NCBI GenBank assembly: GCA_024277115.1
Contig: JAJRVW010000203.1
Coordinates: 1 to 54,201 of the forward strand
Origin: Calditrichota bacterium
Lineage (GTDB): Bacteria > Calditrichota > Calditrichia > Calditrichales > J004
Direction of reading: 5' to 3'
Length of the DNA: 54,201 nucleotides
Below are positions 5,867 through 41,810 of the stretch, in pieces (position 1 is the stretch's first letter; every line of letters begins with the position of its first letter). The notes beneath the pieces were generated by a model. That model did not search any database. It had not been told where the DNA came from and saw nothing but the letters and a program-made list of their open reading frames with translations. The translations under genes were made by a program, and so were the position numbers.

Positions 5867-7234
5867 TCAGGCAGAAAGCTGTAACAGTTGGGCAGCTTTC
5901 TCTTCATCACCCATTTTTAAATAGAGGCCGGCAAGCCTGCGGCCAACGTTTTGATTATTGGTCGAAAAGGTATAAAGCTTCTCGTAAACCTTAATTGCTT
6001 CCGGGAAGTTTTGTTGTTTCATATAAATGACGCCTAGGGTATCCATCGCATCCTGACGGGCAGGATTAATTTGGATTAGTTTATTAAGGCAGTAAATTGC
6101 TTCGGGAATTCGCGAAAGTTTTAGGGCCAGGGGAATCGCTTTATTTAAAACATCTTCGCCTCCAAATGTTTTATTTATCAACTTAAACAGGATACCAAAC
6201 GCAGCTGAATTATCCCCTAATTTTTCCAAAAGAACCGCTTTCGTATAGTTCAGCTTGTCTTCATCAATTATAACATCTGTAGAAATCTGCCAACCATTTT
6301 TTTGTAAAAGTTGTCCATTTGTAATCATCTTTTCCACGGCATCAATGGCAGCTTTATAATCGCCTTCAATTTCGGCAACACGATAGAGCATATAATATGC
6401 GCCAACCTGGTTTTTTACTTTTTGCAAGGACTCTTGCGCATTTATTTTAGCCATACGATAATCTTTTTGCTTAAAAAAGGACTCGGCCAAAACATTTAAA
6501 AGCGAAGCAGTCATGGCATTGTCGAACTGGTTCAATTTTTTTGCTTCAATAAAATGGGCGATGGCCAGGTGATGTTCGTTATTCAAACTAAACTGCTGGC
6601 CAAGGGTATAATGCGCATAAGCGCTGGAGGGGTTTTCCTCAACCGTTTTTTGGAGTAACCTGAGGTTGCGTTCGCTTTTTTCAGATTTTAACTCCCCTTC
6701 TACCGCATAACCCAAATGCTCGATGACTAATTTTGACCGACGGGTTTCTGGCCTTGGATAATTTGGGTCATGTGCCAATTGTTCATGTATCCGTCCTTTA
6801 AAGGCTATGCCCTTATTATTTGTAAACAGACGGTAGGCCGTGGAAATATAAGCGCTGGCCGCATCATTTGTTTTGTTGTTGATTTGAACCTGGTAAATGA
6901 TCGGCTTTTTAGTGGAAATTATTTCTTTCCGTATTTGCAGTTTTGAATCCGGTGCTAATCGTTCATCGGCATCCAACCATAAAATCCAATCGGATGTGGC
7001 ATGTTTTATTGATTCATTTCTGGCTACTGAAAAATCATCACACCAATTAAAATAATGGATTTCAGCGCCATATCGTTTTGCAATATTAACAGTTTGATCG
7101 GTAGAACCTGTATCCAAAATTATGATTTGATCAACCACATTTTTTACGCTCTCGAGACAATCAGCAAGAAACTCTTGCTCGTTTTTTACAATCATACACA
7201 AAGAGAGTGTTTGTCTTTTTTGTTTATTTTTCAT
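5867..7234 (-). CDS. Family 2 glycosyltransferase with TPR domain
   Basis: The 455-residue protein begins with a compact GT-A domain. The donor-binding segment LSLCMIVKNE is at residues 10-19, DTGSTD at 41-46, and the metal-binding DxD within LDAD at 87-90. The second half (about 190-455) consists of tetratricopeptide-like helical repeats, which usually bind protein. This combination resembles the SunS/WaaE-type transferases found near flagellar or surface-protein modification loci. It is four bases downstream of a second, double-domain homologue, so the two are co-transcribed. Its sugar and acceptor cannot be deduced; flagellin is suggested by the neighbouring flagellar operon. Confidence 0.85.
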   Translation of the reverse strand: MKNKQKRQTLSLCMIVKNEQEFLADCLESVKNVVDQIIILDTGSTDQTVNIAKRYGAEIHYFNWCDDFSVARNESIKHATSDWILWLDADERLAPDSKLQIRKEIISTKKPIIYQVQINNKTNDAASAYISTAYRLFTNNKGIAFKGRIHEQLAHDPNYPRPETRRSKLVIEHLGYAVEGELKSEKSERNLRLLQKTVEENPSSAYAHYTLGQQFSLNNEHHLAIAHFIEAKKLNQFDNAMTASLLNVLAESFFKQKDYRMAKINAQESLQKVKNQVGAYYMLYRVAEIEGDYKAAIDAVEKMITNGQLLQKNGWQISTDVIIDEDKLNYTKAVLLEKLGDNSAAFGILFKLINKTFGGEDVLNKAIPLALKLSRIPEAIYCLNKLIQINPARQDAMDTLGVIYMKQQNFPEAIKVYEKLYTFSTNNQNVGRRLAGLYLKMGDEEKAAQLLQLSA

Positions 7235-7238
7235 CTTT

Positions 7239-9446
7239 TTAATTCAACACTTTCTCTGCAGGTTTTACCGCTTCAAATACTTGTAAAAGACGGTCAACTT
7301 CAGATAAATCCAGTTTATGGATATGTTGGGTCTTTTTTAATTCCTGAAATAATTTTATAGCTTTTTCGGTATTGCCATCATACATAATCGTTATGGCCAA
7401 AATATATTTAGCCATCGCATTTTTTGCATTAAAGCGTAGACAGGCGGATGCATATTTTTGTGCCGCCGGGTGGTTATCACGCGCCAACTCAATTTGCCCA
7501 AGCCGCAGATAAATTATTTCCTTAATTTCATTGGTGATATTTCCCTGCGGATTGCTGATTGCTTTAGTCAAAAACTCGGCTGCTTTGTCCCATTGTTTCA
7601 GCGCCTTATAGGTTTCTCCCGTTTTAAAAAGCAGATAGGCATCTTGGGGCGTTTCCCGCAATTCGTCTTCCAAAAGATTTAAATTCCGCTTTGCGCGGGC
7701 TTCATTATTTGCCTGATAGCCATAATGATTTATAATAATCTCACTCTCAGAAAATTTACCGGAATGCTCTGCAATGGACGGGATTATTTGTTCATGCACT
7801 TTGTTTTGATAGCGATGGTCCGCTTTATTTAAAAAGAGCCTTACCTGTTTTTCATCTAAAAATGTTACCATATCCTCTTCGGGTTGATAATTGCGCAATA
7901 CAACATTTATGGCATCAGCCTCGGTTTCTTTTACCTGGACCCGCAACCGGTTAAGCGAACTTTTATCCAACTCTTCATCGGCATCCAAATGCAGGATCCA
8001 TTTGCCTTTTGCCTGTTCCAGGGCAATATTACGCGCATCGGAAAAGCTGCCATTCCATACAAATTTAATAATGGTTGCCCCAAAGGACTGGGCAACTTTT
8101 AACGTATCATCTTCAGAACCGGTATCAACGATGATAATTTCATCCACCACATCTTTAACGCTATTCAAGCAACGCTTTAAATCTACTTCCTCATTCTTTA
8201 CGATCATACATAAAGAAACAAGCGGGCCGGTATATGCGGGTTGTTGCTCTTTCCCCAAGTCGCCGAGCTGGTTTTTTTGATCCGGATTCAGCAAAAGGTA
8301 AGCCGCTTCAAACAGTTCTTGATCATATTGTTTTATAAAGCCTAAAACGGAAGTTAAATCTAAATTTGTTTTTTCTAATAATTCAGGAAGATTATCAATT
8401 AGCTGGACAAACTCCGCTGCTGTTTTCTGAGAATTTACTAATTTTAATAACTGAAAAAATGGGGAAATCCGCTCTTCCCTGCCAAGCACAACATGGCTTG
8501 GCGCGATCCCGCTTTTGATACATTTTGTGAGGTCGTCGATGGCCTTGTCATAATTTTTGTTCATAATCGAAATTTTTACATAAGGCCACACAAGGCGGAT
8601 ATCGTTCCATTTTGTTTTCTCGTTGATGATTGCAGCGCCGTTATAAAACTTTTCTACCGAATCTGTATTACTGCCCAAAATTACCCAGTCGCCAAACATA
8701 CCCCATATCCCAACAATTGCTTCGGTTAAGGGCGGATTCTTTTTCTCGACCCGATAAACGGCATTTAATAAATTTTCGCTAAATCGCTTGTCTCCGAGCG
8801 CTTTTAAGGTTAATAAAAGTTTAAACCAGTAATGAAAGTTATCATCCTCTTTTTTAGTTGCAGCTTGTAAAAGCTTAAGATTCCGCAAAAGTTTATTTTC
8901 TGTATCCATGTGCCCGGAATGGTTTAACCAGCACTCCGCCAGTGAGCCAAATGGCACTGTAATATTATTTTTAGTGGCATATTCACGGATAGATTTTAAC
9001 GGATGCTCATGGATGATGCCTTCATATTTAAATCCCAGGTTATTTCTAAACAACAAAAGCCGGTCTAATGACTGGTATTTGTCAGCAGAAATATATGAGC
9101 GCTCGTCAATCATCATACCAAGATATTTTGTTCCGCTTAATTGGTGTTTTATCGATAGCTCCGGGTGCATGGATAAAATATGATCTGCGTCGAGATTAAA
9201 TATCCACTCTTTTGTGGCTTGCTGAATGGCAAAATTTCGGGCGGCAGAGAAATCATCGTTCCACACATAGTGATAAATGACTGCGCCAAATTCCCTGGCA
9301 ATTTTTACCGTATCATCAGTGGAACCCGTATCAACAATAATAATTTCATCTACATGTTTACGGATGGAACCAAGGGCGAGGGCGAGGTTTTCTTCCTCAT
9401 TTTTAACGATCATGCATAGCGAAATTGTAACGGCATTATTTTTCAT
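7239..9446 (-). CDS. Tandem double GT2 glycosyltransferase with TPR
   Basis: This 735-residue protein holds two family 2 glycosyltransferase modules in tandem. The first starts at about residue 8 (SLCMIVKNEE) with DxD at 86-88. The second starts at about 410 with the same SLCMIVKNEE signature and DxD at 488-490. A helical region separates them (about 180-400) and TPR-like repeats follow the second module (about 590-720). Both modules keep the DTGS(T/E)DDT donor-site motif, so both appear competent. The modules are closely related to each other and to the single-domain protein downstream, indicating duplication and fusion. Sugar and acceptor are unknown. Confidence 0.85.
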   Translation of the reverse strand: MKNNAVTISLCMIVKNEEENLALALGSIRKHVDEIIIVDTGSTDDTVKIAREFGAVIYHYVWNDDFSAARNFAIQQATKEWIFNLDADHILSMHPELSIKHQLSGTKYLGMMIDERSYISADKYQSLDRLLLFRNNLGFKYEGIIHEHPLKSIREYATKNNITVPFGSLAECWLNHSGHMDTENKLLRNLKLLQAATKKEDDNFHYWFKLLLTLKALGDKRFSENLLNAVYRVEKKNPPLTEAIVGIWGMFGDWVILGSNTDSVEKFYNGAAIINEKTKWNDIRLVWPYVKISIMNKNYDKAIDDLTKCIKSGIAPSHVVLGREERISPFFQLLKLVNSQKTAAEFVQLIDNLPELLEKTNLDLTSVLGFIKQYDQELFEAAYLLLNPDQKNQLGDLGKEQQPAYTGPLVSLCMIVKNEEVDLKRCLNSVKDVVDEIIIVDTGSEDDTLKVAQSFGATIIKFVWNGSFSDARNIALEQAKGKWILHLDADEELDKSSLNRLRVQVKETEADAINVVLRNYQPEEDMVTFLDEKQVRLFLNKADHRYQNKVHEQIIPSIAEHSGKFSESEIIINHYGYQANNEARAKRNLNLLEDELRETPQDAYLLFKTGETYKALKQWDKAAEFLTKAISNPQGNITNEIKEIIYLRLGQIELARDNHPAAQKYASACLRFNAKNAMAKYILAITIMYDGNTEKAIKLFQELKKTQHIHKLDLSEVDRLLQVFEAVKPAEKVLN

Positions 9447-9630: not shown

Positions 9631-9969
9631 CTATTCGACGCTTTCAAGATTGCTTTGTACAAGTTTTTGCAGACCTAAGGCGCTTTCGTTATCCGGCTCA
9701 ACTTTTAGTGCGGCCGTTATAAAGTTTTCTGCCTGTTGCCAGCGTTCGATCTCACAATAAAATCCGGTTAAGATTATTAAGGTCTCTACATCTTCGGGAT
9801 TATTTTTTATTATCTTATCGAAAACCGCAATTCCGTTCTGAAAATCAGCTAATTCGATCAAACTTAAACCATAATTACGCTGGGCTTCAAGTAGTGCAGC
9901 GTCTTTCTCGATGGCCGTGGCAAAAAATCCTTTGGCATTCTCAAATTCGCCATTTCGATAATTGACCAT
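9631..9969 (-). CDS. C-terminal TPR fragment of the giant glycosyltransferase
   Basis: These 112 residues form about three TPR-like repeats (for example NYRNGEFENAKGFFATAIEK and ENFITAALKVEPDNESALGL). The same frame is open upstream beyond the first ATG, reading WPDYAAAYNQLGMVNYRNGE, a textbook TPR helix pair. That shows the fragment is the displaced C-terminus of the gene overlapping it in another frame. It is unlikely to be an independent gene: no ribosome binding site precedes the ATG and the fold would be cut mid-repeat. Confidence 0.55.
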   Translation of the reverse strand: MVNYRNGEFENAKGFFATAIEKDAALLEAQRNYGLSLIELADFQNGIAVFDKIIKNNPEDVETLIILTGFYCEIERWQQAENFITAALKVEPDNESALGLQKLVQSNLESVE

Positions 9970-12900
9970 CCCGAGTTGATTATAGGCAGCTGCGTAATCC
10001 GGCCATTTTCGATAAGCCTATTCAAGGTATTTACGGTTTTAATTTCCTGATTTTTTTGGAAGGCACAAAGCGCTGTCCCAAACAAGGCATCCGCATTTTC
10101 GAAAAGGTCAAAACTTTGCTGAAATTTTTCTTGGGCTTCGTCGATTTTATATACGTCCAATAATGCAAATCCCTCATCATTAACCTTTTGATACAAATCG
10201 GTAGACTGTGTTTGAGAAATATCTTGCCCCGGTTGACCAAGAATGGCCTGTGCTATCTCATTTTGCGGATCAAGTTCCAGCGCTTTAGTCGCGAATGAGT
10301 TTGCTTTATCAATTTGTCCAATCTCAGCATAAAGCTCCGCCATATAAACGATGGAACCAATATCTTCAGGATTTGAATCCAAAATTTCTACGAAGATATT
10401 CACTCCTTTTTCATACTGCTCATTTTCGATTAACGCCTGGCCATAATTTCGTTTTACATCAAGAAAACTACCATCAAGGTTTAAGGCCTGCTCAAAATAA
10501 GTTAATGCTTCTTCTTTGTTGCCTTCCATAAATGCCATAAGTCCCATCTGGTTGAGTACAGCGGCATTATCAGGGAAATGTTGATAGGCGCGTTGCAGGT
10601 ATTGTGCGGCCTGCCCATTTTCTCCTAAAGACCGATATGCCAGGGTTATTCCCAACAAAGCTTCGCCGGAAAGGGGATTAACAGCTAATATCTCAGAAAA
10701 TATTTCTGCGGCCTGTTCAGCATCGCCCTGTTCAAAAACAGCCGTTGCCTCATCAATCATTTTAGGGTGTAAATCATGCAAGGGATTTTTCATCTCAAGC
10801 AATTCCTGATAATCCACATCCGGCCATTTTTTCTTGAAGATTTTTTCATTCTCACGCAGGGAAGCAAGTAAATCAATATTATTGGCTTTAAAAGAGCTGC
10901 TGCCAAAATGATGAATATAGGTACCATCATGTACCATCAGCGCATAACCCGCCTGCCTTATTTTTAAGCTTATATCATCATCTTCATAATTGCCCAGGCC
11001 ATAAATTTCATCAAAACCATCAATCTCATTAAAAATATTTTTTGATGTGAGCAACACAAAACCGGCAAGACGACGGCGAGGTGTCACCTGGCCACGATGC
11101 TGCTTACGCCACGATTTTGCAAAGGGGAAAAACCCTTCATCATCACTATAAGGCACATTTTCCAATAGCTGAAATCCACTGGCATTATTCGTTAATGCGC
11201 TCACCATACCAATTTTTTCATCACGGTCAAAAGCAGAAATTAAATCTTCCAGCCACCCATCGCCAACAAGCACATCATTATTTAAAAGACAAATATATTC
11301 ACCACTGGCAATCGCAACGCCCTGATTGTTTCCGGCAGAAAATCCTTTATTCTCTTTATTTAAAATCAGCCGTACATTATCCAGTTTTTTATCCAGCTTT
11401 TTTAACCAGTCGATCGTACCATCGGTTGATCCGTTGTCCACCAAAATCAACTCATAGGGCCAATCGGTATTATCAACAATCGAGTCGATCGTTTTCTTGG
11501 TCATGCCAAGTGCATTAAAAGTGAGCATAACGATGGAAGCCAGCGGTCTGCTTTCTCCCTGGCTTTGCGGCGTTGTTTCGGCGTGCTCATCCAACACTGT
11601 TTGACCTGTTTCCGGTGGTGCGTAAAAATTTATCGGGCTACTAAGTTGAACGGCCTCGCCGGATTGTTCCAATCGGAAATCAGGTTGAATCTTCCCCAAC
11701 CAACGGGTGTGCAGGCGTTGAATATTTTCGGCCACTTTAACAAACCGTTCCGGCCCGCTTTTTGATTCGTGATGGATCAGTTCTGCATGCGGTTGATAAA
11801 TAATTTTATATCCTTCTTCCCGAATTCTGAAACAGAGGTCGACATCTTCGTAACCGTTAAAATAACCTTCATCAAAACCATTTAATTCATCTGCTAAAAA
11901 TTTAGGCATAAGCATACAGGCTGCCGTAACCGCCTGAAATTCAATCATCAAATTTGCCTGCGGGAAATCCTTTGGACGCCCGGAGAGAATATGCTGCCCG
12001 AGAAGCGGATCGCCGTTTTTCAAATCTTCCACGATGGCCACGCCCGCGTGCTGGATTGTTTCATCCGGGTAAAGCAGTTTGGCGCCGACCGCTCCGACAA
12101 AACCATCATTTTTAGCGATGGCCAACATGGCTTCCAGCCAATGGGCGCGCGGCTCCGTATCATTATTCAGGAATACGACCCACTCGCCTTTTGCCTGCTT
12201 AAGAGCCTGATTATTGGCACGGGAGAACCCGATATTTTCTTTATTACGAATTATCTGAATATTGTCTTTTTTATTTGCAAGTCCGCTGATAAAATCGGCT
12301 GTCCCGTCTGTAGAAGCATTGTCCACAAAAACAATCTCATAATTAATACCCTGTGTGTTTTCCTCCAAAGCATCAAAACATTTTCGGGTATACTCAACTT
12401 TATTATAAAGCGGGATAATAATCGATACTTCGTATGAATGTTTTGGCTGAACATCGGTTGGTGCAACAAATTTAACAAGCTGATTATATGCCTCCAACCA
12501 ATTATTAAGATTGTTTTTTAATAAGTATTTTTCAGCGATTTCCTTCTTTGCATTTTGCGCCATTTTCATACGCTCATTCGGATGCTCGATCATCCATTTA
12601 ATCGCCCGGTACCAGGCCTTATTTGTATTATTTGCCAGCAGGCCATTTTCTTTATCGACTAAAGTATCCTTATAAGCGGCAACATTGGAGTAGACTCCGG
12701 CAATCCCCGAGCGGCTATATTCCAGCCATTTGATGTCCGATTTGGCATTATTAAACGGCGATTCTTCCAATGGTACTAAGGCAAAATCTATTTCGAGGTT
12801 TTGCAATTGTTGTGCATAGTCAGCATAAACCGAGGTGAACTCAGGGCCGCGTTTTACATTGGGCAGCTTAGTCAGCTCAACCAGTTCATTGCCCCATAAA

Positions 12901-14045
12901 ACCAATTCAACTTTATCTTTGTATTCTTTTAAGATTTTTTCAAGCGGCTTTAAAATTATCGCCAGATCCTTTAAATGCGTTGGCGTCCCGGAGAAAAGGA
13001 TGCGAACCGGGCCATCATGCAATTCAGGTTCTTTGGCTTGCCATAATTGTTCATCCAACACATTTGGAATAATTTGTACATTCTCATTTAAGCCCAGAAC
13101 ATATTTTTCAATAGCCTTGGTTGAAACGGTCACTAAGTCTGCCTGCCTTAAATATTTTTCCAGTTGCGGGCGCATTTTGGCATAATAATCATAAGCGAGA
13201 TGTCCCTTTGGGATAGTCCAGAAGGCATCATCAAACTCGTAGACCATTTTAATATTATTCTTTTCTATATATGGTTTTAACGTTTCGTACGGAATTTGCC
13301 CGGGTACATTGCGCTGGATTATTAAAATATCCGTTTCGTCAAGTCGCGCCTCAAGATTTCCCGCATTCTCCAGATGAATAAACCGGTAATCAATATGCCC
13401 TGCGCCTTGTAAATTAGTTAACGATTTATGTAAACGGATGTACGGACAAGCCCGGTTATACTGTTCGCTGCTTAATACAGTTATACGCGGCAAACTATTT
13501 GTTTGATTTTGCGGGCCATTTTGAGCGACCATCTTTGTTTCTGTTTTTGGGTAATAGCCGGCCCAAAACGCAACGTCTTCATCAAGCGTCATTATTTTTG
13601 TTTCAACCGCTGCTGCCCCCTGCACTAATTGAGGATCATCAACCAGATTTTGCATTATTTGTTTTAGCTGGTTTTCATCAAACGGATTAAATAACCAACC
13701 ATTTTCACCATCGTTTACAACGTCTAAAATCCCACCTACAGCAGCAGCTATTACAGGCGTCTGTGCCATTAATGCTTCACGGGCCACAAGGGAATAACTT
13801 TCTATTTTGGAAGGTAAAACCACAACGTCCACCTGGCTCAAGATATCAGCAAGTTGTTCCGGCGTATACGTTCCAAGGTATTCCGCCCGTTTCTCGGTAG
13901 CACAAAACTGGTTTAAGGCCTGTAATTCCGCGGGCAATCCATTACCCCATATTTTTAGTTTTACATCACCGTTCAGCTTGCTGAAAGCGTTGTACAAAAC
14001 CGTTGGATTTTTTAAACCGGTAAAATTGCCAAGAAATCCAAACAC
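9864..14045 (-). CDS. Multidomain GT4-GT2-GT2-TPR protein, downstream part of broken gene
   Basis: The 1,393 residues begin in the middle of a GT4 fold: residues 1-170 are the nucleotide-sugar-binding half, with VVVLPSKIESYSLVAREALM containing the donor-site Glu. A second GT4-like transferase follows (about 190-530), then two GT2 domains (about 545-800, FVDNASTDGT and LNNDTE; about 840-1080, LVDNGSTDGT and LNNDV), then TPRs (about 1090-1350). The nominal GTG start has no ribosome binding site. The frame is open upstream to the TAA at 14166, so the N-terminus belongs to the preceding ORF. The last 30 or so residues are out-of-frame readthrough after the frameshift near 10006 and do not resemble a TPR. 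Confidence 0.7.
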   Translation of the reverse strand: MFGFLGNFTGLKNPTVLYNAFSKLNGDVKLKIWGNGLPAELQALNQFCATEKRAEYLGTYTPEQLADILSQVDVVVLPSKIESYSLVAREALMAQTPVIAAAVGGILDVVNDGENGWLFNPFDENQLKQIMQNLVDDPQLVQGAAAVETKIMTLDEDVAFWAGYYPKTETKMVAQNGPQNQTNSLPRITVLSSEQYNRACPYIRLHKSLTNLQGAGHIDYRFIHLENAGNLEARLDETDILIIQRNVPGQIPYETLKPYIEKNNIKMVYEFDDAFWTIPKGHLAYDYYAKMRPQLEKYLRQADLVTVSTKAIEKYVLGLNENVQIIPNVLDEQLWQAKEPELHDGPVRILFSGTPTHLKDLAIILKPLEKILKEYKDKVELVLWGNELVELTKLPNVKRGPEFTSVYADYAQQLQNLEIDFALVPLEESPFNNAKSDIKWLEYSRSGIAGVYSNVAAYKDTLVDKENGLLANNTNKAWYRAIKWMIEHPNERMKMAQNAKKEIAEKYLLKNNLNNWLEAYNQLVKFVAPTDVQPKHSYEVSIIIPLYNKVEYTRKCFDALEENTQGINYEIVFVDNASTDGTADFISGLANKKDNIQIIRNKENIGFSRANNQALKQAKGEWVVFLNNDTEPRAHWLEAMLAIAKNDGFVGAVGAKLLYPDETIQHAGVAIVEDLKNGDPLLGQHILSGRPKDFPQANLMIEFQAVTAACMLMPKFLADELNGFDEGYFNGYEDVDLCFRIREEGYKIIYQPHAELIHHESKSGPERFVKVAENIQRLHTRWLGKIQPDFRLEQSGEAVQLSSPINFYAPPETGQTVLDEHAETTPQSQGESRPLASIVMLTFNALGMTKKTIDSIVDNTDWPYELILVDNGSTDGTIDWLKKLDKKLDNVRLILNKENKGFSAGNNQGVAIASGEYICLLNNDVLVGDGWLEDLISAFDRDEKIGMVSALTNNASGFQLLENVPYSDDEGFFPFAKSWRKQHRGQVTPRRRLAGFVLLTSKNIFNEIDGFDEIYGLGNYEDDDISLKIRQAGYALMVHDGTYIHHFGSSSFKANNIDLLASLRENEKIFKKKWPDVDYQELLEMKNPLHDLHPKMIDEATAVFEQGDAEQAAEIFSEILAVNPLSGEALLGITLAYRSLGENGQAAQYLQRAYQHFPDNAAVLNQMGLMAFMEGNKEEALTYFEQALNLDGSFLDVKRNYGQALIENEQYEKGVNIFVEILDSNPEDIGSIVYMAELYAEIGQIDKANSFATKALELDPQNEIAQAILGQPGQDISQTQSTDLYQKVNDEGFALLDVYKIDEAQEKFQQSFDLFENADALFGTALCAFQKNQEIKTVNTLNRLIENGRITQLPIINSGWSIIEMANLRMPKDFLPRPSRKTLHYLKPSVIMV

Positions 14046-14165
14046 ACGTGTTTTTTTAGATGTCGTTTTTGGTAATTTTTCTATTTTCTTTAAGCCGAGT
14101 GGCTTTACTTCAATCTTGTCTTTTTCGACAAATCCTTTTTCTTCAAAATTTTCTTTAACAAATAA

Positions 14166-17100
14166 TTATGGCGCTGTAACCTTCCGTGCGCCCGCTAATA
14201 GTTCTTTTGCCCGATTATTTCTTTCGCATAAAGCTTGTTTAACTAAACCATGTTGCCCGTCTTCCGGCTCTTTTTGGAAGAGATGAAATAAACAATCCGT
14301 ACATTTGCCGGGTTCAGGCCCCTCACAGATATTATCACTTGGATAATGGAAAAGATGATTTCTATGGCACATAAAAGTAAAATCATGCAGCGTAACAGCA
14401 TAGGGGATTTCTAACTTTTGCAGAATAGAGCCGATGGCAAAAGGGACATTTTGCGCATGCTGAATATGTACAAATGTGTAATTATTGGCTTTAAAGAATT
14501 CGGTTAATAAATGCTGGATCGGGGCACCACCTGAATCCATGTACTGATTAAATGTGGTAGGATCGTACCACATCTGGATGGTACGAATCCCCTGAAAAGA
14601 TTTTACACGTAATTCCGGTGCAACCTGGTCATTATCAATATGAGGAAAAAGGACGTGGACATCCTGGCCTTTGGCTTGCAACCCTTTTACAAGTTCCAGC
14701 ACATAATTTTCCGTGCCGCCATACCAAAAAGGTGGGAAATTATGTACAACATATAAAACCATATTGTTGTTTTCATTTGTGATTGTAGCATCGGCAGGCA
14801 GAATATATTCCCCTGCGATTTTTTTGTAGGCTTCTTTGTAGTTGGCCCGCACCTGTCCCGCTTCAATTATAGGCACATCGCCCCGCCGTGAAACAGTCTC
14901 ATCACTCAAATAATACAGCCCGATAAATTCATTTAAATGAATAAAATCATGGTTTAAGGCAGCGCGTAACCAAAATTCCCAATCTGCCGCGTAAGTTAGT
15001 TTTGTATCAAAATAGCCCAGCTCATCATGCAATGATTTACGCCAAACCGGATGCGGGCCCATATAACACCAGGAGTGCATGGTACGACGATCAAAATCCG
15101 GCCAGATTAAATCTTCTGTACCATCCGAGCTGTTGTTTTCAAAAGTCTCATTAGGCTGCTTGGTAACAAGGGAGTTTCCATAAGCCAAAACTTTATCGGG
15201 ATTCTTTTCCAGCAGATTAACCAGCTTTTCAATAGCATCATCTTTTAAGCGGTCATCGGTATTGGCATTGGTGATATATTTCCCGGATGCCATCTTGATT
15301 CCACGGTTCCATGCTTGATAAACCGTTTCCCGCTCTTCAGTCCGCATAAATTTAATATGATCAAAATTTTGCTGAAATTCTTTTACGATCGATTGTTCGT
15401 CCTGCGGGCTGTTGGCGTCAATAACTATAATCTCTAATTTACCTTGTTTATACAAAGTTTGCTTTACAAGCCCATCCAAACAGCCCCGGATAAATCTTTC
15501 TGAAGCATACGTGGAAACAATGGCGCTGGCTATAATGGGATTCTCCACTTTATTCAGAATATCATTTCCTTGAGCGATAACATCACTTTGAGTGATGGTA
15601 TCGGTTTGAGTACCTGGATTTGTCATTGTATTTAAAGGAACAACATTGTTTGGCTTGGGCGCCTCCAGGTAAGGCATTAAAAGCGGCTCGATGGCGATTA
15701 ACTGTTGCGGTGTAAATTTAAAAGCGGTCAGCATTGCACTGATTTCTTCCTGGGATGGATTTTCGCTCTCTGTCTTAATTGATTTTAAATCACCCAAAAG
15801 TTGATTATAATCATAGCCCAGTTGTCCTATAATTTTCGGCCCGGTCAAATCAATTAAAATTTCAGCCAGTAATTTATAGATAGGTTCTGTAAATGTAGTT
15901 TTCCATTTTTCCAAACTTGAAAGTGCAGGCTTTTGATGTTGTTGTACACCTTGCGTATCGCCCATTGAACCTTTTGGCGTATCAAAAGAGCCATAATTTA
16001 AAATAGCCTCCTCAAAACCAACCTTAAAACCATTTAAAAGCGCATGTAAGTTAGTTTGCGGATTCTGAACAAAATCTTCATACGAAATGATTTGCAATTT
16101 GTCGCCATAGTTTTCTATGGCCTGCGCTAATAATTGTGGCGCTTGCAGCAGATCATTTATATGTAATTGGAGACGTGCCCAATCATTGTTAACCCAAGTT
16201 TTTAAAATGGAACTAAGTACGGCAAGTGGGTTGCGCAACAAAATCACATATTTTGCTTCGGGTAATGTTTCAATCAGCTCTGGGATGATGTTATAATAAC
16301 GTGGCGTTTTATCCAGAAATAATGACTTGCCACTTCCCTGTAACGCGCGGTTATACCATGTACCGGCCATAGCGCGGATACCGTCGAGGTAATCTTCGCG
16401 GCCATTGGGCAGGTTGGCCATAAAATCTTTTAGCCCGATTTGCGCGTCAACAGCACTAAATTCGGCTTGACCACCCTGCTCTTTTAAAGCATATAATGGC
16501 TGAAGCATAATCCACGGCTCGGCCAGTGTATGGATTTTACTATGGCTGCCCAATATGCGTTGTAACATTGTAGAACCTGCCCGCGGTTGTGAGATGAGGA
16601 AAATCAGGTTTTCACCTAAATATATTTCTGCTGTTCTTTTGCTTTTACTCTTTGGGTTTTCCATATTGATTTCCTCTGTAGTACTCTCAGCCAAATTAAC
16701 AATATCATCAAGGCTGAATTTTTTAGCCCGGACATGAGCCATGTTTGAAAGATGAATAAGTTGGGAGTTTAAATTTTCAATCACAAAGCTTTGTTCTTGA
16801 ACAGAACGGTTTTTTAAAAGATGTATATTTTTTTCGATAACCATTTTCAAAGAATTATAAAGCTTGTCTCCCAGCTGATGATGTATACCACCGCTATGGT
16901 CACGGTACTGCACATACGCACCATCGGAATAGGCCACCTGATATTTTGCGGCAAGCCGTATTTTAAGGTCCCAGTCCACATGAACTTTTATATTTTCATC
17001 GCCATAACCTACTTCACGCATAACATCGGTATAAATAAGTTGATTGCGGTAAACGCTTCTACTATTCGGGAAAAGACGTTTTGCAAAAACAGGTATGAAA

Positions 17101-17582
17101 ATATCGCCCGAGGGCATTTCTGTTTGTTGTGCATCCAACCAACTACCAATAAGTTTTCCATTTTCATTTATTACATTTACGTTGGAATAAGCCACTTTTG
17201 CTTTTGGATTTTTTTTCAGGGCCAACCATTCTTTTTCCAGTTTACCGGGCAACCAATAATCGTCTCCATCGATTATTGAAACCAGCGTACCTTTAACCTG
17301 ATCTTTACCAAAAACACCATTTTTAACATGGCCGATGTTTTCTTTATGACGGTATGCCCGAATCAATGTGGGGAAACGTTGTTTAAATTCTTGAATAATT
17401 TCCCAGGATTTGTCCGTGGAGCAATCATCGCATACAATAATTTCGTACGGTTGCAGGGTTTGGTCCAAAATACTTTGCAAGCATTGGGCAATAAATTTTT
17501 CAAAATTATATGAAAATACGACCACGCTAATTTTTGGATTTGGGAGCGGTTTATTTGTGCTTTTCTTTTTTCGCTTTGCCAT
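14166..17582 (-). CDS. Multidomain GT2-sulfotransferase-GT2-GT4 protein, upstream part of broken gene
   Basis: The 1,138 residues contain four modules: a GT2 domain (about 16-230, DDCSTD and DGDD at 105-108), a sulfotransferase (about 330-620, PAPS-binding loop SQPRAGSTMLQRILG and a second site LLRNPLAVLSS), another GT2 (about 688-930, IDANSPQDE and NANTDD), and the N-terminal half of a GT4 transferase (from about 958, VVHNFPPFWYGGTENY). The last ends abruptly at ARKVTAP before a TAA where the family normally has a conserved Ser. GAGG lies six bases before the ATG. The gene follows a separate sulfotransferase-like gene by eight bases. Fusing sulfation to sugar transfer suggests assembly of a sulfated glycan; substrate unknown. 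Confidence 0.75.
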   Translation of the reverse strand: MAKRKKKSTNKPLPNPKISVVVFSYNFEKFIAQCLQSILDQTLQPYEIIVCDDCSTDKSWEIIQEFKQRFPTLIRAYRHKENIGHVKNGVFGKDQVKGTLVSIIDGDDYWLPGKLEKEWLALKKNPKAKVAYSNVNVINENGKLIGSWLDAQQTEMPSGDIFIPVFAKRLFPNSRSVYRNQLIYTDVMREVGYGDENIKVHVDWDLKIRLAAKYQVAYSDGAYVQYRDHSGGIHHQLGDKLYNSLKMVIEKNIHLLKNRSVQEQSFVIENLNSQLIHLSNMAHVRAKKFSLDDIVNLAESTTEEINMENPKSKSKRTAEIYLGENLIFLISQPRAGSTMLQRILGSHSKIHTLAEPWIMLQPLYALKEQGGQAEFSAVDAQIGLKDFMANLPNGREDYLDGIRAMAGTWYNRALQGSGKSLFLDKTPRYYNIIPELIETLPEAKYVILLRNPLAVLSSILKTWVNNDWARLQLHINDLLQAPQLLAQAIENYGDKLQIISYEDFVQNPQTNLHALLNGFKVGFEEAILNYGSFDTPKGSMGDTQGVQQHQKPALSSLEKWKTTFTEPIYKLLAEILIDLTGPKIIGQLGYDYNQLLGDLKSIKTESENPSQEEISAMLTAFKFTPQQLIAIEPLLMPYLEAPKPNNVVPLNTMTNPGTQTDTITQSDVIAQGNDILNKVENPIIASAIVSTYASERFIRGCLDGLVKQTLYKQGKLEIIVIDANSPQDEQSIVKEFQQNFDHIKFMRTEERETVYQAWNRGIKMASGKYITNANTDDRLKDDAIEKLVNLLEKNPDKVLAYGNSLVTKQPNETFENNSSDGTEDLIWPDFDRRTMHSWCYMGPHPVWRKSLHDELGYFDTKLTYAADWEFWLRAALNHDFIHLNEFIGLYYLSDETVSRRGDVPIIEAGQVRANYKEAYKKIAGEYILPADATITNENNNMVLYVVHNFPPFWYGGTENYVLELVKGLQAKGQDVHVLFPHIDNDQVAPELRVKSFQGIRTIQMWYDPTTFNQYMDSGGAPIQHLLTEFFKANNYTFVHIQHAQNVPFAIGSILQKLEIPYAVTLHDFTFMCHRNHLFHYPSDNICEGPEPGKCTDCLFHLFQKEPEDGQHGLVKQALCERNNRAKELLAGARKVTAP

Positions 17583-17590
17583 AACAGCCT

Positions 17591-18490
17591 CTAAATTTCT
17601 AAAAATGAAAAATCGTAACCCATATCTTCGTATGCACCCTGAAGATTATATTTATTAAAGAAGTAACTAAATGTCTCTTTTTGCCACCCGGAAAATTTAA
17701 TATAACGCGCTTCTGCATTGGTTTTATTGGCATCATTTTTATGCTGGTTTACTACACCCGTCGTGTAAACCTTTTCAAGATATTCCGGTGTAGCAAGGAT
17801 GCCCTCCCCGGAAAGAATTTTTATACTTTCTGCCAAGACGTGTGGTTTTTTCGTTATGTCTTCCATCTTTACATGGCCTTTAAAAAACACATTGGGCGTG
17901 CCCCGCATATTGTCCAGTCCATCAAGGTCCAATTTTAAACTTCCTAATACCGCGCATGCCCCGATAAAAGAAAGGTTTTCCAAATCACCCGGATACAAAT
18001 CATATTTATGGCTAAGGTGATAAATAAAATCTTTTGCCTCTCTTAGCACTTTGCCCGTTGTCCAATACAGTTCGTTCAGGTCATATCGGAATAAATCTTT
18101 AAATTGCCCATACCCGGACCACACCAGGGAAACAGGATGCCGAACCAGGTTTTGAACCTGAAAGGTACGGTCTGGGGAACCGTATTTTTCGACAATAACA
18201 GGAATATCCCGCAAACGAAAAACATGTACTGAGCCATAAAGACGGGCTTGCCCAAGCTTTTCAATTTCAACGAAGGTTTCATCTAAAGAACGGTTCTGGC
18301 GCGAGACATAACCTTCGTGTAAATCCTTCAAATTCTTTTTTAGACTGTCATTGCTGTTCATATCGGTTTTATTGGCAAGAATATTTCGCGCACTGTGTGT
18401 GCAAAGAATATCTTCATGTAAATTTAAAGCATAAGCCAGCCAATTACTTGCACTCCAGCCATGTGATGTAAAAATAAAATTCTGCTTCAT
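17591..18490 (-). CDS. Sulfotransferase-like P-loop protein
   Basis: A 299-residue protein with features of the PAPS-dependent sulfotransferase superfamily. An N-terminal strand-loop, IFTSHGWSASNWLAYAL (residues 6-22), corresponds to the 5'-phosphosulfate loop, although the usual Arg/Lys-Ser/Gly-Thr pattern is modified. Near residue 115, NLVRHPVSLVWSGYGQF matches the 3'-phosphate site. The start overlaps the upstream gene's stop (ATGA), implying translational coupling. Neighbours are a glycosidase-like propeller gene upstream and the giant glycosyltransferase downstream. Sulfation of a sugar or flagellar glycan is inferred; with the altered loop, activity is not certain. Confidence 0.65.
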   Translation of the reverse strand: MKQNFIFTSHGWSASNWLAYALNLHEDILCTHSARNILANKTDMNSNDSLKKNLKDLHEGYVSRQNRSLDETFVEIEKLGQARLYGSVHVFRLRDIPVIVEKYGSPDRTFQVQNLVRHPVSLVWSGYGQFKDLFRYDLNELYWTTGKVLREAKDFIYHLSHKYDLYPGDLENLSFIGACAVLGSLKLDLDGLDNMRGTPNVFFKGHVKMEDITKKPHVLAESIKILSGEGILATPEYLEKVYTTGVVNQHKNDANKTNAEARYIKFSGWQKETFSYFFNKYNLQGAYEDMGYDFSFLEI

Positions 18491-19419
18491 CGTTCAAGCT
18501 CCGCATAACCAAATCCTGACCTGCCAAAACCATTGCCATTATAAAACATATAGATTTTAGTTTTGTAGCGAAAAACATAAGGATACGCAATCATCTCACT
18601 ATCCCAGCCCGTTTTAGACGTATAGATTCCGGCCAAACTATCCTTCCGGTTCCAATTTTTTCCATCTTTCGACTCGGCATAACCTATTTTATAACTCTCC
18701 TTTTCATCGTTGCGATAGTCACCCAGGCCACGCACCGAATACCACATTTTATAGAAACCGTTTTCAAAAATAACAGACGGGCAGGCAATCCCGCCTTCGT
18801 TTTTTTGTAATCCTATCGAGGTAATATCAGGACGCATCCAATACATGCCGTCTTCCGACTCGGCATATTTTATTTCATAAAAAGGTTCCATTATACCGGC
18901 ACGGGCTTGCCATTTTTTGTAAGACATATACCACGTTTTCCATTTTCCATCCTTAACCAATATGCTTTGGCAGGATACGCCGACAGGGTCATTTAATGAA
19001 CGGTCCATAACCGGGCCTGTGGCAATTTTTTTAAATGCGCCAGCTTCTTCATCCCAAATTGCCAACCCGAGCGCCGTACGGTAGCGCGCTGTATTTCCGG
19101 TATTCCATCCCACATAAAAAAAATATTTTTTTCCATTGTGGTTAATTATCTCCGATGGCATCACGCCGCTGTCATCAAAAAAACCGGCGGCGCCCAGTTT
19201 TAAAACGGGTTGATCGTGTTCATATAATATTTTTACCGGATTGTTTGCATCCACCTCAATAAAGGATGTTAATGTCCGGTTTTGCTCATCCCTTGTGCCA
19301 TAATAAATACGCCAAACATCTTTTTTGATTAGTTCGACGAGCGGCACCTGGGCATGGCTTAGAGACCAGCATTTATTTCCGGCAGGTTTAAAGATTAACC
19401 CTTTTTTTATCCATCTCAT
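18487..19419 (-). CDS. Glycosidase-like five-bladed beta-propeller protein
   Basis: About 310 residues with the repeating Trp/Tyr-rich blades of the GH43/GH32/GH130-type five-bladed propeller fold (for example VWRIYYGTRD, KYFFYVGW, WKTWYMSYKKW, FYKMWYSVRG, IYMFYNGNGFG). Blade motifs such as YAESEDGMYW and YAESKDGKNW recur. Proteins of this type are common in surface-glycan gene clusters and are often annotated as glycosyl hydrolases; a catalytic triad cannot be assigned by eye. I place the start at 19419, where the ATG overlaps the upstream TGA as ATGA. The frame also opens upstream to 19464, but those 15 residues lie inside the previous gene. A role in trimming or binding the island's sugar is inferred. 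Confidence 0.7.
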   Translation of the reverse strand: MRWIKKGLIFKPAGNKCWSLSHAQVPLVELIKKDVWRIYYGTRDEQNRTLTSFIEVDANNPVKILYEHDQPVLKLGAAGFFDDSGVMPSEIINHNGKKYFFYVGWNTGNTARYRTALGLAIWDEEAGAFKKIATGPVMDRSLNDPVGVSCQSILVKDGKWKTWYMSYKKWQARAGIMEPFYEIKYAESEDGMYWMRPDITSIGLQKNEGGIACPSVIFENGFYKMWYSVRGLGDYRNDEKESYKIGYAESKDGKNWNRKDSLAGIYTSKTGWDSEMIAYPYVFRYKTKIYMFYNGNGFGRSGFGYAELER

Positions 19420-20378
19420 GCGATTGTTTCCATCCCCTGAACAGGCGTATTTTCTTTCGCCCAAAAAGTTATCATTTCACGGATGCCTTCTTTTAAGGAT
19501 ATCTGCGCTTCAAAACCGGTCTCATCGTATAATTTAGAGCTGTCCAGAAGAAAGCTGTTTTCCCTGGCGCGTGGCGGTAGCATTTCTATTTTGACGGGGC
19601 ATGTTAGCTGGCGCTTAATTTCCTGTGCAATCTCACCAATCGATGGATTTATCGCACCCGTATTGAAAACCTTCCCACTAATTTTATCTACCTCAATCTC
19701 CACCATCTTTATAAACAGCCGGCTTAAATCTTTTATATGAATTTGTGGGCGTTTCTGCCCGCCTCCCAATACTTGGATCCGCCCTTTTTGCAGGGCATTT
19801 TTCGTCATACGGTTAACAATAAAATCATCGCGCATTTTTAGTGAAGAACCAAAAACCATCGCTATCCTTAGGCAGACAACACAAAAACCCGGGTCACCTT
19901 CCTCAAGCAAAAATCTTTCTGCTTCCAGCTTTGATGCCGAATATGGCTCTTCCGGGATTGGCTCCAAATTCTCTGTTAAAGGGGCGGTGTAAGAACTTCC
20001 ATAAACCCCAAATGTCGAGGCAAAAATAATCCGTTCGCATCCAGCCGCGTTGGCCAGTTTTACAAATTTTTTAAAATAGGTATAATTGACCCTGTTTGTA
20101 TGTCCGGGATTTTCCTTACCCATCCTACCATCAGAAACCCCGGCCAGGTAGATCACAGTCGATACATCTGCCAAGCTGGCCCGTACAAGCGCGACATCAT
20201 TTATACCACCCTTATAAACTTTTAGGAACGGCTCTGTATACGTTGCGGGCAATGACACATTTCCACGTAAAAACAAATCGAGTATATTAACCCGGTGTCC
20301 CTTCTCCAATAGGTTTAAAAGTAATCGGGAACCAATATATCCGGCGCCACCGGTTATTAGAATCCTTTTATTTACCAC
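19416..20378 (-). CDS. NAD-dependent sugar epimerase/dehydratase
   Basis: This 320-residue extended short-chain dehydrogenase begins with the Rossmann loop ILITGGAGYIG (residues 6-16). It has the active-site Ser/Thr (FASTFGVYG, about 119-127) and the YSASK catalytic pair Tyr146/Lys150. It is the right size for a nucleotide-sugar 4-epimerase or 4,6-dehydratase. It starts with GTG one base after the preceding stop, with a GGGACGG-like ribosome binding site. Within the island it should modify a nucleotide sugar that the glycosyltransferases then use. The exact sugar cannot be told from sequence. Confidence 0.85.
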   Translation of the reverse strand: MVNKRILITGGAGYIGSRLLLNLLEKGHRVNILDLFLRGNVSLPATYTEPFLKVYKGGINDVALVRASLADVSTVIYLAGVSDGRMGKENPGHTNRVNYTYFKKFVKLANAAGCERIIFASTFGVYGSSYTAPLTENLEPIPEEPYSASKLEAERFLLEEGDPGFCVVCLRIAMVFGSSLKMRDDFIVNRMTKNALQKGRIQVLGGGQKRPQIHIKDLSRLFIKMVEIEVDKISGKVFNTGAINPSIGEIAQEIKRQLTCPVKIEMLPPRARENSFLLDSSKLYDETGFEAQISLKEGIREMITFWAKENTPVQGMETIA

Positions 20379-20379
20379 T

Positions 20380-20940
20380 TTAACCGTCCCAATAGTGATT
20401 TGTTTTTATCAGGTCAAAATAGTCTTCACGGGTAACTCCAACTATTATTTTGTCCCAAAATTTATTTTTACGGAAATACCATTTTCTTTGAACGCCTTCT
20501 TCTTTCCAGCCACACTTTTGGCAGTATACCGCCAATGATGCCTTGTTATATTCAATCATCGAGCCATCCAGCCTTTGCAGGCCAAGCTCCTCAAAAGCAT
20601 AGCGCATCACCGCCATAATCGTGTCTTTGCCATAGCCTTTTCCACGAATATCGACTGGTCCTAACATCATACCATGAAAAGCATTGCGGTCTTTCCAGTT
20701 TATTTCCACCAGGTTTGCCGTACCTATTAGCCCCACATTGGGTGCTTCGACGGCAAAGCGTTGGTTTAGTGAATTTGCCGAAATATTTTCAAACCATATT
20801 TTCTGATCTTTTTCTGTAACAGGGAAATGCCAGGTACCCAGCATCGGCCAGATATCCGGATCGTTCGCCCATTGTAAAAGGAGTTTTTGATCCGATTCTG
20901 TTATGGCGCGCAAAAGGACATTTTTACCTTTAAAATTCAT
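20380..20940 (-). CDS. GNAT family N-acetyltransferase
   Basis: A 186-residue RimJ/RimL-type acetyltransferase. The acetyl-CoA-binding motif RGKGYGKDTIMAVM sits about two thirds in, followed by LQRLDGSMIEYNKASL and YCQKCGWKEEG, the usual motif B. It overlaps the upstream aminotransferase by ATGA. This pairing is the same as in pathways for N-acetylated amino sugars (for example pseudaminic- or Qui3NAc/Fuc3NAc-type), where the transferase makes the amine and the GNAT acetylates it. That pathway role is inferred from context. Confidence 0.85.
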   Translation of the reverse strand: MNFKGKNVLLRAITESDQKLLLQWANDPDIWPMLGTWHFPVTEKDQKIWFENISANSLNQRFAVEAPNVGLIGTANLVEINWKDRNAFHGMMLGPVDIRGKGYGKDTIMAVMRYAFEELGLQRLDGSMIEYNKASLAVYCQKCGWKEEGVQRKWYFRKNKFWDKIIVGVTREDYFDLIKTNHYWDG

Positions 20941-22136
20941 ACAATTTCCATTTCTTTATAAGCATGATTTTCATAAACATTTTTGATTTCCGTGCAAACC
21001 CGTTCAACTTGTTCTTCACCCAGGTCGCAATAAAGCGGAAGGCAGATAACTTGTTTGGACATGTGTTCGGCAACAGGAAGCTTTTCTGCCAATGCCGAAG
21101 GTAATCCCCGGTACATGGGAAAATGGCTTATAAGCGGATAAAAATAGCGGCGTGCATAGATTTCTTGCTGTTTTAGGTTTTCATATAAAACATCCCGCGC
21201 ATGCCCAAACTTATTCTCATCGATAAAAATGGGGAAATAGGCATAATTGTGGTCCACATTATCAAATTCCGTTAAACAAGAAATTCCAGGCACACCGGAC
21301 AATAAATTTTTATACAGCCGGGTCAGCATTTTTCGTTTTTCAATACGCTCATCAATATATTTTAACTGCACCAACCCCAGCGCTGCTTGCATTTCGTTCA
21401 TTTTTCCATTTATGCCTGGCGCTATTACCGTGGTTTCATCGGCAAAACCAAAATTTTTAAGATAGTCAATTCGTTTCTTTAGTTTTTCATCATTCGTAAC
21501 AATTGCGCCACCTTCCATAGTCGTAAATATTTTAGTTGCATGGAAGCTGAGAACAGAGAGGTCACCAAAATTTAAAATGCTATCGCTCCCTTTTTTAACG
21601 CCAAAAGCATGGGCGGCATCATAAATAATTTTCAAACCGTAGGTATCGGCAATTTGCCCGATTTTTTCTACATCGCAGGGATTACCATACACATGTACCG
21701 GAAGGATTGCCGAGGTTTGTGGCGTTATCAGTTTTTCAATTTTATCAGGATCAAGGTTTAAAGTCAGCGGATCGATATCACAGAAAACAGGTTCGATGCC
21801 ATTCCAGTTTAAGGCGTGGGTAGTGGCCACAAAACTATAAGGCGTGGTGATCACCTCTCCCGAGAGACGCAATACCTGCGTAGCGACCACCAATGCCAAA
21901 GTCCCATTGGAAAAAAGGCTAACATATTTCACACCAAGGTACTTTGCTAAAGCTTCTTCAAATTGCTGGTGAAACAGCCCGTTATTTGTTACCCAACGCC
22001 TTTGCCATATTTTTTCCAGATATTCGGTAAATTCATCCAATGGCGGCAAATCAGGGCGGGTTACAAAGATATGCCCGTTTTCTTTATGTGCTGCCTCAAA
22101 TGTGTTCAGGCTTTTTGCAAAAAGGTCCGGGTTCAT
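20937..22136 (-). CDS. DegT/DnrJ/EryC1-type sugar aminotransferase
   Basis: The 399-residue protein is a fold-type I PLP aminotransferase of the nucleotide-sugar family. Asp173 in IYDAAHAFGV contacts the PLP pyridine nitrogen, and Lys202 in SFHATKIFTTMEGG forms the Schiff base. The N-terminal segment RRWVTNNGLFHQQFEEALA is typical of the family. It probably installs an amino group on a keto-sugar such as a dTDP- or UDP-4-keto-6-deoxy hexose. ATGA overlaps at both ends tie it to the acyltransferase genes on either side, so acylation of the resulting amine is a reasonable inference. Confidence 0.88.
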   Translation of the reverse strand: MNPDLFAKSLNTFEAAHKENGHIFVTRPDLPPLDEFTEYLEKIWQRRWVTNNGLFHQQFEEALAKYLGVKYVSLFSNGTLALVVATQVLRLSGEVITTPYSFVATTHALNWNGIEPVFCDIDPLTLNLDPDKIEKLITPQTSAILPVHVYGNPCDVEKIGQIADTYGLKIIYDAAHAFGVKKGSDSILNFGDLSVLSFHATKIFTTMEGGAIVTNDEKLKKRIDYLKNFGFADETTVIAPGINGKMNEMQAALGLVQLKYIDERIEKRKMLTRLYKNLLSGVPGISCLTEFDNVDHNYAYFPIFIDENKFGHARDVLYENLKQQEIYARRYFYPLISHFPMYRGLPSALAEKLPVAEHMSKQVICLPLYCDLGEEQVERVCTEIKNVYENHAYKEMEIV

Positions 22137-23258: not shown

Positions 23259-24293
23259 TTATGAGGAAGAATTTACCTCAAGTTCTTCAGGTAATTTATT
23301 TATGGGCAGGTGATTGTCGGTGTGCCTGTTTTTATCTAAAAACGATTCGATGAGCTCAACAATAATTTTCATTTCCGGCATGGAATAGCGTTGGTCAATC
23401 GGAAGCGGGCATAATTTATTGGCCATTAAATATTCAAATGAACCCGGCTCACTTCTAAAAGAAACCTCAGGCCAATATTGAGAAACATGGATTTTGTTTT
23501 GGATTAGATATTTCCTTAAATCATCATGTGCGCATAAAAAGGGATAAATCATCGGCCCATGAACGGATCGTAAATTTATTTTTAGCCAGTTTATCTTTTT
23601 TAAATTTTTATGTAAATACTTAAAATTGTCTTCACGTTTCTCCCAAACTTCATCATAATGGATCGAGGATAATATTTTTTGTGTCAACGTGGACATCCGT
23701 CTGATTTTCGCCCGGTTTAAAAGCTCTTCTGTGTTCCTAAAAAGGAAACTACCTGCCTCTGCCCCACCATCAATCCGTACGAGTCGCGCCATATAACGCT
23801 GTGTGGAGTCATCCTGGATAACCTTTTCGACTTCAAGGTTATCAGCATAAATATAACCGCCATCGGCCACACCAAAAAATTTACGCGGTGAATAAAAAGT
23901 AGTAATCCCCGGTTCTGGATTTGAGAAAAACGCCTGGGTATTATCACATATAACATTTGTGAATTTTTTACAACTATCCTGAATAACTTTTTCACATATC
24001 CCAAAGAAATTTATAAGTAAGACATACGTTTGCCCAACTTTCTCAGGATCAAGAATGGGATGGAAATTTTCATCTAATTTATAAAACTGAATTTTTGTTT
24101 TACTTTGTTTAATGGCAAGAAGAACACTGTCGCTAATATAGGATGGAACATAAAGCTCTCCCACTTGCTTCTGAATCAGAAAAAAACTGAGGGAATTACG
24201 GGCAGTATTAAATCGTAGGGCATTTGTATGATATTCGGTTCCTTTGGGAAGCTCTAACTCAAAATACCCACCAATTTCTTCATTTTCTTTCAT
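23259..24293 (-). CDS. DegT-like PLP aminotransferase homologue
   Basis: About 344 residues with the fold of the DegT family in a divergent form. ICDNTQAFF supplies the pyridine-binding Asp (residue 123 if counted from 24311), and YSPRKFFGVADGG supplies the Schiff-base Lys (144 in that count). The protein lacks the standard N-terminal start of the family and has a hydrophilic C-terminal tail. I prefer the ATG at 24293; a TTG six codons upstream (24311) has no better ribosome binding site. Proteins with this RKFFGV-x-DGG pattern occur in surface-polysaccharide clusters. The substrate is unknown. Confidence 0.7.
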   Translation of the reverse strand: MKENEEIGGYFELELPKGTEYHTNALRFNTARNSLSFFLIQKQVGELYVPSYISDSVLLAIKQSKTKIQFYKLDENFHPILDPEKVGQTYVLLINFFGICEKVIQDSCKKFTNVICDNTQAFFSNPEPGITTFYSPRKFFGVADGGYIYADNLEVEKVIQDDSTQRYMARLVRIDGGAEAGSFLFRNTEELLNRAKIRRMSTLTQKILSSIHYDEVWEKREDNFKYLHKNLKKINWLKINLRSVHGPMIYPFLCAHDDLRKYLIQNKIHVSQYWPEVSFRSEPGSFEYLMANKLCPLPIDQRYSMPEMKIIVELIESFLDKNRHTDNHLPINKLPEELEVNSSS

Positions 24294-24349
24294 ATTCAAA
24301 TCTTTTCCCAAAAAGGATATTATAAATTTTTTCTTAAAATCCAGTTACG

Positions 24350-26306: not shown

Positions 26307-26364
26307 ATTTTTTTCCTTACTTTTAAATCGAAGTTATCTACTTCCACTTCTGCCAATGTATAAA

Positions 26365-40352: not shown

Positions 40353-40537
40353 TTTTTAATTTTTTTGGCCTTTTGTTTTTCCAGCCCTACCGTTGCCTGG
40401 ATCATTCTTTGGCCTGGATAATCAGGATGGTTGATTACATTTTTTGTTTCCAATATCACAATGTCGCTGCCCAGTTCTGATTTGGCTTTTACCAACGCTT
40501 TGGGAAGTGATTCGGCTAAATACTTTCTAACTTGCAT
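40259..40537 (-). CDS. flhF: FlhF N-terminal region (upstream part)
   Basis: The 92-residue product starts with the conserved FlhF beginning MQVRKYLAESLPKALVKAKS and ELGSDIVILETK. After about residue 61 (KQKAKKIKK) the reading frame leaves the family: the Lys-rich tail ending NIMRLKI reads over the start of the GTPase part in the wrong register. It overlaps the last 11 bases of flhA. Alone it is too short to act as FlhF. Confidence 0.65.
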   Translation of the reverse strand: MQVRKYLAESLPKALVKAKSELGSDIVILETKNVINHPDYPGQRMIQATVGLEKQKAKKIKKWVPPTVDSGKKPKKKQTYPELTKNIMRLKI

Positions 40538-40910: not shown

Positions 40911-40913
40911 GAC

Positions 40914-41807: not shown

Positions 41808-41810
41808 TGT

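Follow-up and report, generated by a model that had tools for sequence, protein, structure and literature searches.

Flagellin glycosylation, fused glycosyltransferases and flagellin transferases guided by tetratricopeptide repeats (TPRs) are already known. In Caulobacter crescentus, the flagellin O-glycosyltransferase FlmG binds flagellin through its TPR domain, which confers specificity (PMC7591256). In the dGT1/Fap1 pathway of Streptococcus parasanguinis, O-glycosylation proceeds stepwise in the cytoplasm and involves a fused bifunctional glycosyltransferase (GT) (PMC5207161, PMC5063993). Here, we describe a giant, interrupted gene joining six GT domains, a sulfotransferase domain and a TPR tail, which is located at 9631..17582 on the minus strand of a 54,201-nucleotide stretch of DNA from a Calditrichota bacterium (contig JAJRVW010000203.1, hereafter the window). 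It is found at one end of a cluster of flagellar genes, following flgK–flgL and genes for sugar nucleotides and sulfotransferases. Based on sequence comparison, we consider it likely that it encodes a cytoplasmic modular glycan synthase for a flagellar protein, probably flagellin, with the TPR tail holding the substrate.

Domain architecture of the giant protein

The gene runs from 17582 to 9634, spanning 7952 nt or about 2,650 codons, as delineated from open reading frames (ORFs), Pfam matches and an alignment with orthologues. Between 17582 and 9867, frame 0 has no stop other than a TAA at 14168–14166, and the other two frames contain dozens of stops. A frame shift is located at ~10007–9970, after which a 112-aa ORF in a different frame (9969–9634) continues the protein and is 67% identical to the C terminus (residues 2758–2868) of the orthologue in a genome of the same genus, G001. 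The window does not contain any N. A preliminary description of this DNA had proposed one reading frame with two lesions and the domain order GT2, sulfotransferase, GT2, GT4, GT4-like, GT2, GT2 and TPRs; Pfam returns exactly this order. In the piece before the TAA it places GT2 (residues 19–144), Sulfotransfer_3 (327–524), a second GT2 and a GT4 N-domain (954–1070), and in the piece after it Glycos_transf_1 (35–180), PF13524 (413–557), GT2 (581–703), GT2 (~874–1080) and TPRs (1138–1309 onward).

The four GT2 domains are members of PF00535 (E 3e-52 and 1.6e-59 for the two pieces) and carry acidic motifs: M1 (16704..17540) has DGDD, M3 (14808..15539) NTDD, M6 (11616..12440) NNDT and ED, and M7 (10776..11564) NND and EDDD. 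M3 is the most conserved module, with 74–81% identity to orthologues, and the N-terminal donor half of M1 (~residues 16–205) is the part that identity profiles mark as swapped. M2 (15753..16625) matches the sulfotransferase family PF13469, dependent on 3'-phosphoadenosine-5'-phosphosulfate (PAPS), with 89.2 bits against a cut-off of 27; its predicted 5'-phosphosulfate loop reads SQPRAGST and its predicted 3'-phosphate motif RNPLAVLSS. M4 (13566..14771) is a GT4 of the GT-B type matched by PF13439 and PF00534, with ESYSLVARE as EX7E motif and its N- and C-domains on either side of the TAA. M5 (12456..13496) is GT4-like, matches PF13524 (Glyco_trans_1_2) alone and contains AKSDIKWLEY; its EX7E motif is indistinct. 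The TPR tail (9634..10763), delimited by Pfam, ORFs and a fold model, contains the frame change. All modules lie on the minus strand, and the catalytic-type motifs DGDD, SQPRAGST, RNPLAVLSS, NTDD, EX7E, NNDT and NND are preserved in the giant protein and its orthologues.

The fusion in related genomes

Unbroken orthologues with the same domain order are present in genomes of the same genus (G001, 2868 aa), the same family (G003, 2636 aa) and the same order (G016, 2882 aa), those of G001 and G016 having an additional Sulfotransfer_1-type domain after the first GT2. Because these orthologues share the order, the fusion is real and its order beyond chance; from the alignments we are certain that it is not an artefact. 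The preliminary description had suggested such a domain and order search, and had held that homologues always existing as separate genes would mark the fusion as an assembly product; the relatives are fused. The fused orthologues likewise led us to reject an origin from separate genes; an apparent split in G009 coincides with unknown bases. The gene is single-copy in its own genome, and variants of ~1,000–3,000 residues occur across the phylum Calditrichota, including a shorter version (1860 aa) directly after flgL in the single-contig relative G006.

A scan of named genomes placed the matches to this family in Calditrichota; it used two peptide motifs of M5 only, so that the exact order could escape it outside this phylum. 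C-terminal GT2-TPR relatives were found outside Calditrichota. A distant betaproteobacterial relative, in Azoarcus indigens (L053, 9983–13756), is a 1257-aa protein with two GT4-like domains of the M5 type and a GT2. A viral origin was also considered, and no relatives were found in the viral contigs searched.

In this copy, the TAA in M4 stands where the orthologue consensus is TAPS, with a serine. A reassignment of TAA was rejected: it is a normal stop, terminating 31 of the 48 listed window ORFs, many with tightly packed neighbours, and recoding is therefore not indicated. On the same contig, flhA (40527–42620, minus strand) has two in-frame TAA codons, at 41816–41814 and 40916–40914, positions occupied by Ser and Glu in the intact copy of G001. 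These defects would suit the view that the fused frame is a product of assembly, or that it is a pseudogene derived from separate genes. We regard this as highly improbable in light of intact orthologues of 2636–2882 aa in independently assembled genomes, and of a remaining flhA sequence 89% identical to the G001 copy. Because of this identity, the lesions are more readily taken as very recent events or sequencing errors than as old decay. The three nonsense codons, if each arose by a change of one base, are all consistent with G:C to T:A transversions, a pattern that may reflect DNA damage or sequence error, or else a very recent loss of motility.

Linkage to flagellar genes

The giant gene is located by flgL/flgK in 10 genomes (its own, G000, as well as G001, G003, G004, G006, G007, G010, G015, G024 and G027). 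Among 40 Calditrichota genomes, 21 have both the giant gene and FlgI and 14 have neither; four have the giant gene only and one FlgI only (Fisher p=1.7e-6). These counts refer to strong matches, and not every match at E 1e-40 covers the full length. The four genomes with the giant gene only are all multi-contig; two of them are <75% complete and one carries the giant gene beside flgKL. In a second phylum, represented by G367, the gene order is flgK-flgL-rmlC-epimerase-rmlD-1656-aa protein-GT2TPR-GT2TPR-flagellin-flagellin, with rhamnose-type genes following flgL, and the 1656-aa protein combines methyltransferase, GT, GT4-like, GT2 and TPR domains. In this genome, the giant transferase is separated from the GT2-TPR genes by a gene for a protein with a cyclic-nucleotide-binding domain (L112 12008–13003), for which a role in regulation is possible.

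As in a flagellin glycosylation locus, GT genes are thus linked to flagellar structural genes, and sugar-nucleotide genes are part of the locus (DegT, PseH-like GNAT and epimerase; SDR, AMP-ligase and NeuD in G001 and G003). The gene types GT2, GT4, DegT, GNAT and epimerase are also common in O-antigen loci, and the NCBIfam matches, each scoring far under its cut-off, are to glycosyltransferases of exopolysaccharide and the cell wall. Both would suit an enzyme that makes oligosaccharides for lipopolysaccharide, S-layer or exopolysaccharide and is simply encoded beside the flagellar genes. The phylum-wide co-occurrence with FlgI, the repeated adjacency to flgL and the relative between flgKL and flagellin genes in a second phylum render this explanation quite unlikely, as does the lack of any Wzx, Wzy or initiating transferase among the typed window genes.

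Gene neighbourhood

The neighbouring genes described here between 5867 and 27720 are all encoded on the minus strand. On the side opposite the flagellar cluster, the giant gene is flanked by two conserved genes, a GT2-TPR gene (5867..7234) and a GT2-TPR/GT2-TPR gene (7239..9446), for which the nearest NCBIfam model is SunS-type, below cut-off. SunS is a peptide glycosyltransferase. Beside the cluster, 3211–5649 encodes a protein of 812 aa that contains FG-GAP repeats and ends in a sorting signal, Por_Secre_tail, of the type IX secretion type.

On the flagellar side follows a set of genes termed cassette A. It comprises a conserved sulfotransferase-like gene (17591..18490; no Pfam match, TSHGWSASNWL loop recognized by eye), a glycoside phosphorylase/hydrolase-like gene (18487..19464), an NAD-dependent sugar epimerase gene (19416..20378, Pfam) and a PseH-like GNAT acetyltransferase gene (20380..20940, Pfam). 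Next are Pfam-assigned genes for a DegT sugar aminotransferase (20937..22136) and a GNAT-like acyltransferase (PF13480; 22133..22966), a conserved gene without Pfam match that is 68% identical in G001 (23259..24311), and a second sulfotransferase gene (PF13469; 24350..25360). The genes flgL and flgK (25428..27720) form the downstream end of a flagellar cluster reaching ~52.5 kb, which beyond flgK contains FlgN, FlgI, FlgH, FlgA, FlgG/F, FliA-type sigma factor, FlhF/FlhG-like, FlhA, FlhB, FliP, FliL, MotA and FlgE-like genes.

Elsewhere in the genome, the flagellins are encoded on another contig, and two APS-kinase-family genes (APS, adenosine 5'-phosphosulfate) are present; PAPS can therefore probably be made. 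Matches to the NeuB family of the nonulosonic acid pathway are weak and partial. A search of the genome with PF01973 (MptE-like/Maf) gave no match, but in controls this model matched archaea only and its reach to bacterial Maf was not demonstrated.

Exchange of modules and cassettes

Per-module profiles show a constant C-terminal GT2 and TPR tail and variable N-terminal parts: the sulfotransferase is absent in G007, two are present in the 1860-aa protein of G006, and G367 has a methyltransferase. Judged by its identities, the window gene is a mosaic within modules. M3–M5 and the TPR tail are closest to the same-genus G001, whereas M6 and M7 are closer to G003/G004 of another genus (72% and 74% identity) than to G001 (54% and 58%).

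Between G003 and G004, which belong to one genus, the DNA is 98.3% identical from mid-M1 onward, and identity is 84% along the stretch that starts at DegT and leads back across the flagellar genes. The intervening cassette has no DNA similarity and measures 4.05 kb versus ~7.5 kb. The breakpoint falls inside M1, where identity is ~52% over residues 16–205 and 97% thereafter, indicating a joint replacement of the sugar-supply cassette and the neighbouring donor-binding half of the first GT2. The synthase of G003 (L029/L038) and G004 (L033/L040) is 98% identical as against 84% for the upstream flagellar genes, which suggests that the giant synthase itself was recently exchanged.

In six of six readable genomes the type of M1 matches the type of the cassette (A in the window, G004 and G020; B in G001, G003 and G002), and in each of two same-genus contrasts, window/G001 and G003/G004, both types switch together. 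On the simplest reading, the N-terminal half of M1 would select the sugar made by the adjacent cassette.

Fold models

The giant protein was modelled as two halves with nine alignment rows each, yielding a mean predicted local distance difference test (pLDDT) of 68 and 76 and a predicted template modelling score (pTM) of 0.36 and 0.41. At these values the modelled domains appear usable and their arrangement relative to each other unreliable. The N-half model matches GT-A enzymes, including CgT of dGT1 (5hea) and TarS. The C-half model matches K4 chondroitin polymerase (2z86/2z87, E 5.8e-21) and heparosan synthase 2 best, and also matches polypeptide GalNAc-transferases and the TPR domain of OGT.

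The match to the two polymerases raises the alternative of a bifunctional enzyme, in which the two C-terminal GT2 domains would alternate as in K4 chondroitin polymerase and the embedded sulfotransferase domain would sulfate a glycosaminoglycan-like polymer; the flagellar neighbourhood would then be incidental, or the polymer would coat the flagellum. Any tandem GT2 pair is, however, expected to match K4 chondroitin polymerase, and the additional GT2 and GT4 domains are foreign to such polymerases, as is the TPR tail. Together with the link to flagellar genes in many genomes, this makes a polymerase unlikely.

Discussion

We favour a modular synthase acting on a flagellar protein. The neighbouring genes would supply unusual aminated and acylated sugar nucleotides, and the first sugar would be put on flagellin (or FlgK/FlgL) by the two GT2-TPR neighbours or by the giant protein itself. 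While the TPR tail may keep hold of the unassembled protein, the chain would be lengthened by the six GT domains; the PAPS-dependent sulfotransferase within the giant protein would sulfate one sugar before export via the flagellar secretion system. Domains or donor-binding half-domains could be swapped along with the genes making the matching sugar, changing the glycan type and leaving the scaffold intact.

The preliminary description, from which the flagellar context was absent, had envisaged an assembly line for a sulfated oligosaccharide. A true fusion of multiple GTs, sulfotransferase and TPRs, with motifs conserved in orthologues, bears out part of this idea; given the position of the gene next to the flagellar cluster, at its end, the scaffold probably is not a free oligosaccharide but a flagellar protein. 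A strict assembly line, in which each domain would add one unit in order, is something we infer at most. A colinear glycan megasynthase is a possible but doubtful extension: here, the order and identity of the GT and sulfotransferase domains would define a sulfated glycan on flagellin, the growing glycoprotein would be held by the TPR tail, and joint exchange of donor-binding half-domains, within the gene, and of matching sugar-supply cassettes would change the glycan type.

Several observations weigh against a flagellar synthase. No measured glycan or flagellin modification was found for any Calditrichota. TPRs are generic, and genes just outside a flagellar cluster can co-locate without shared function. 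The genomes behind the co-occurrence with FlgI are related and thus non-independent, which makes the p-value too small, and the pLDDT values amount to modest confidence. Finally, in this genome the giant gene is broken by a frame shift and one nonsense codon, and flhA has two nonsense codons; the system may have ceased to function here, or the sequence may contain errors.

The preliminary description knew of no enzyme with this domain order, and our searches of open-licence papers for the architecture likewise returned nothing. In this literature we found no flagellar protein that unites six GT domains with a sulfotransferase and TPRs, and no cassette-linked swapping of donor halves inside such a protein; the flagellin glycans described there come from separate, small enzymes. 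If our interpretation is true, a phylum-wide family of fusions of 1,000–3,000 residues with swappable modules would offer natural variants that make the assignment of domains to sugars testable. It would also be the first bacterial flagellar system, within reach of present searches, whose transferase includes a sulfotransferase. Caldithrix abyssi allows the idea to be tested, since this species is in culture, possesses a complete set of flagellar genes and sometimes shows tumbling motility (PMC5317091).

FlmG resembles the giant protein in uniting TPRs and a glycosyltransferase in one cytoplasmic protein with a flagellar function, which is probable for the giant protein (PMC7591256). FlmG has 596 residues, with an N-terminal TPR domain followed by one GT-B, whereas the giant protein has a C-terminal TPR tail abutting a GT-A GT2 domain, six GTs of GT-A and GT-B type and a sulfotransferase. 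Like dGT1, whose CgT fold is matched by the modelled N half, it may carry out successive steps on a protein-bound glycan with fused domains; dGT1 has two GT domains, acts on a serine-rich adhesin and lacks sulfotransferase and TPRs. K4 chondroitin polymerase and heparosan synthase 2 share tandem GT-A domains in one chain with the modelled C half, but they comprise two alternating, polymer-making domains without GT4, TPR or sulfotransferase. The flagella glycosylation islands of Aeromonas likewise combine sugar-supply genes with several glycosyltransferases and yield a heterogeneous flagellin glycan; in these islands, glycosyltransferases are small proteins of their own, for example Fgi-1 with 327 aa, and sulfation is not mentioned (PMC7874193). 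Halobacterium salinarum provides a sulfated protein-bound glycan with dedicated sulfotransferases, in this case an archaeal N-glycan built by separate enzymes (PMC11980604).

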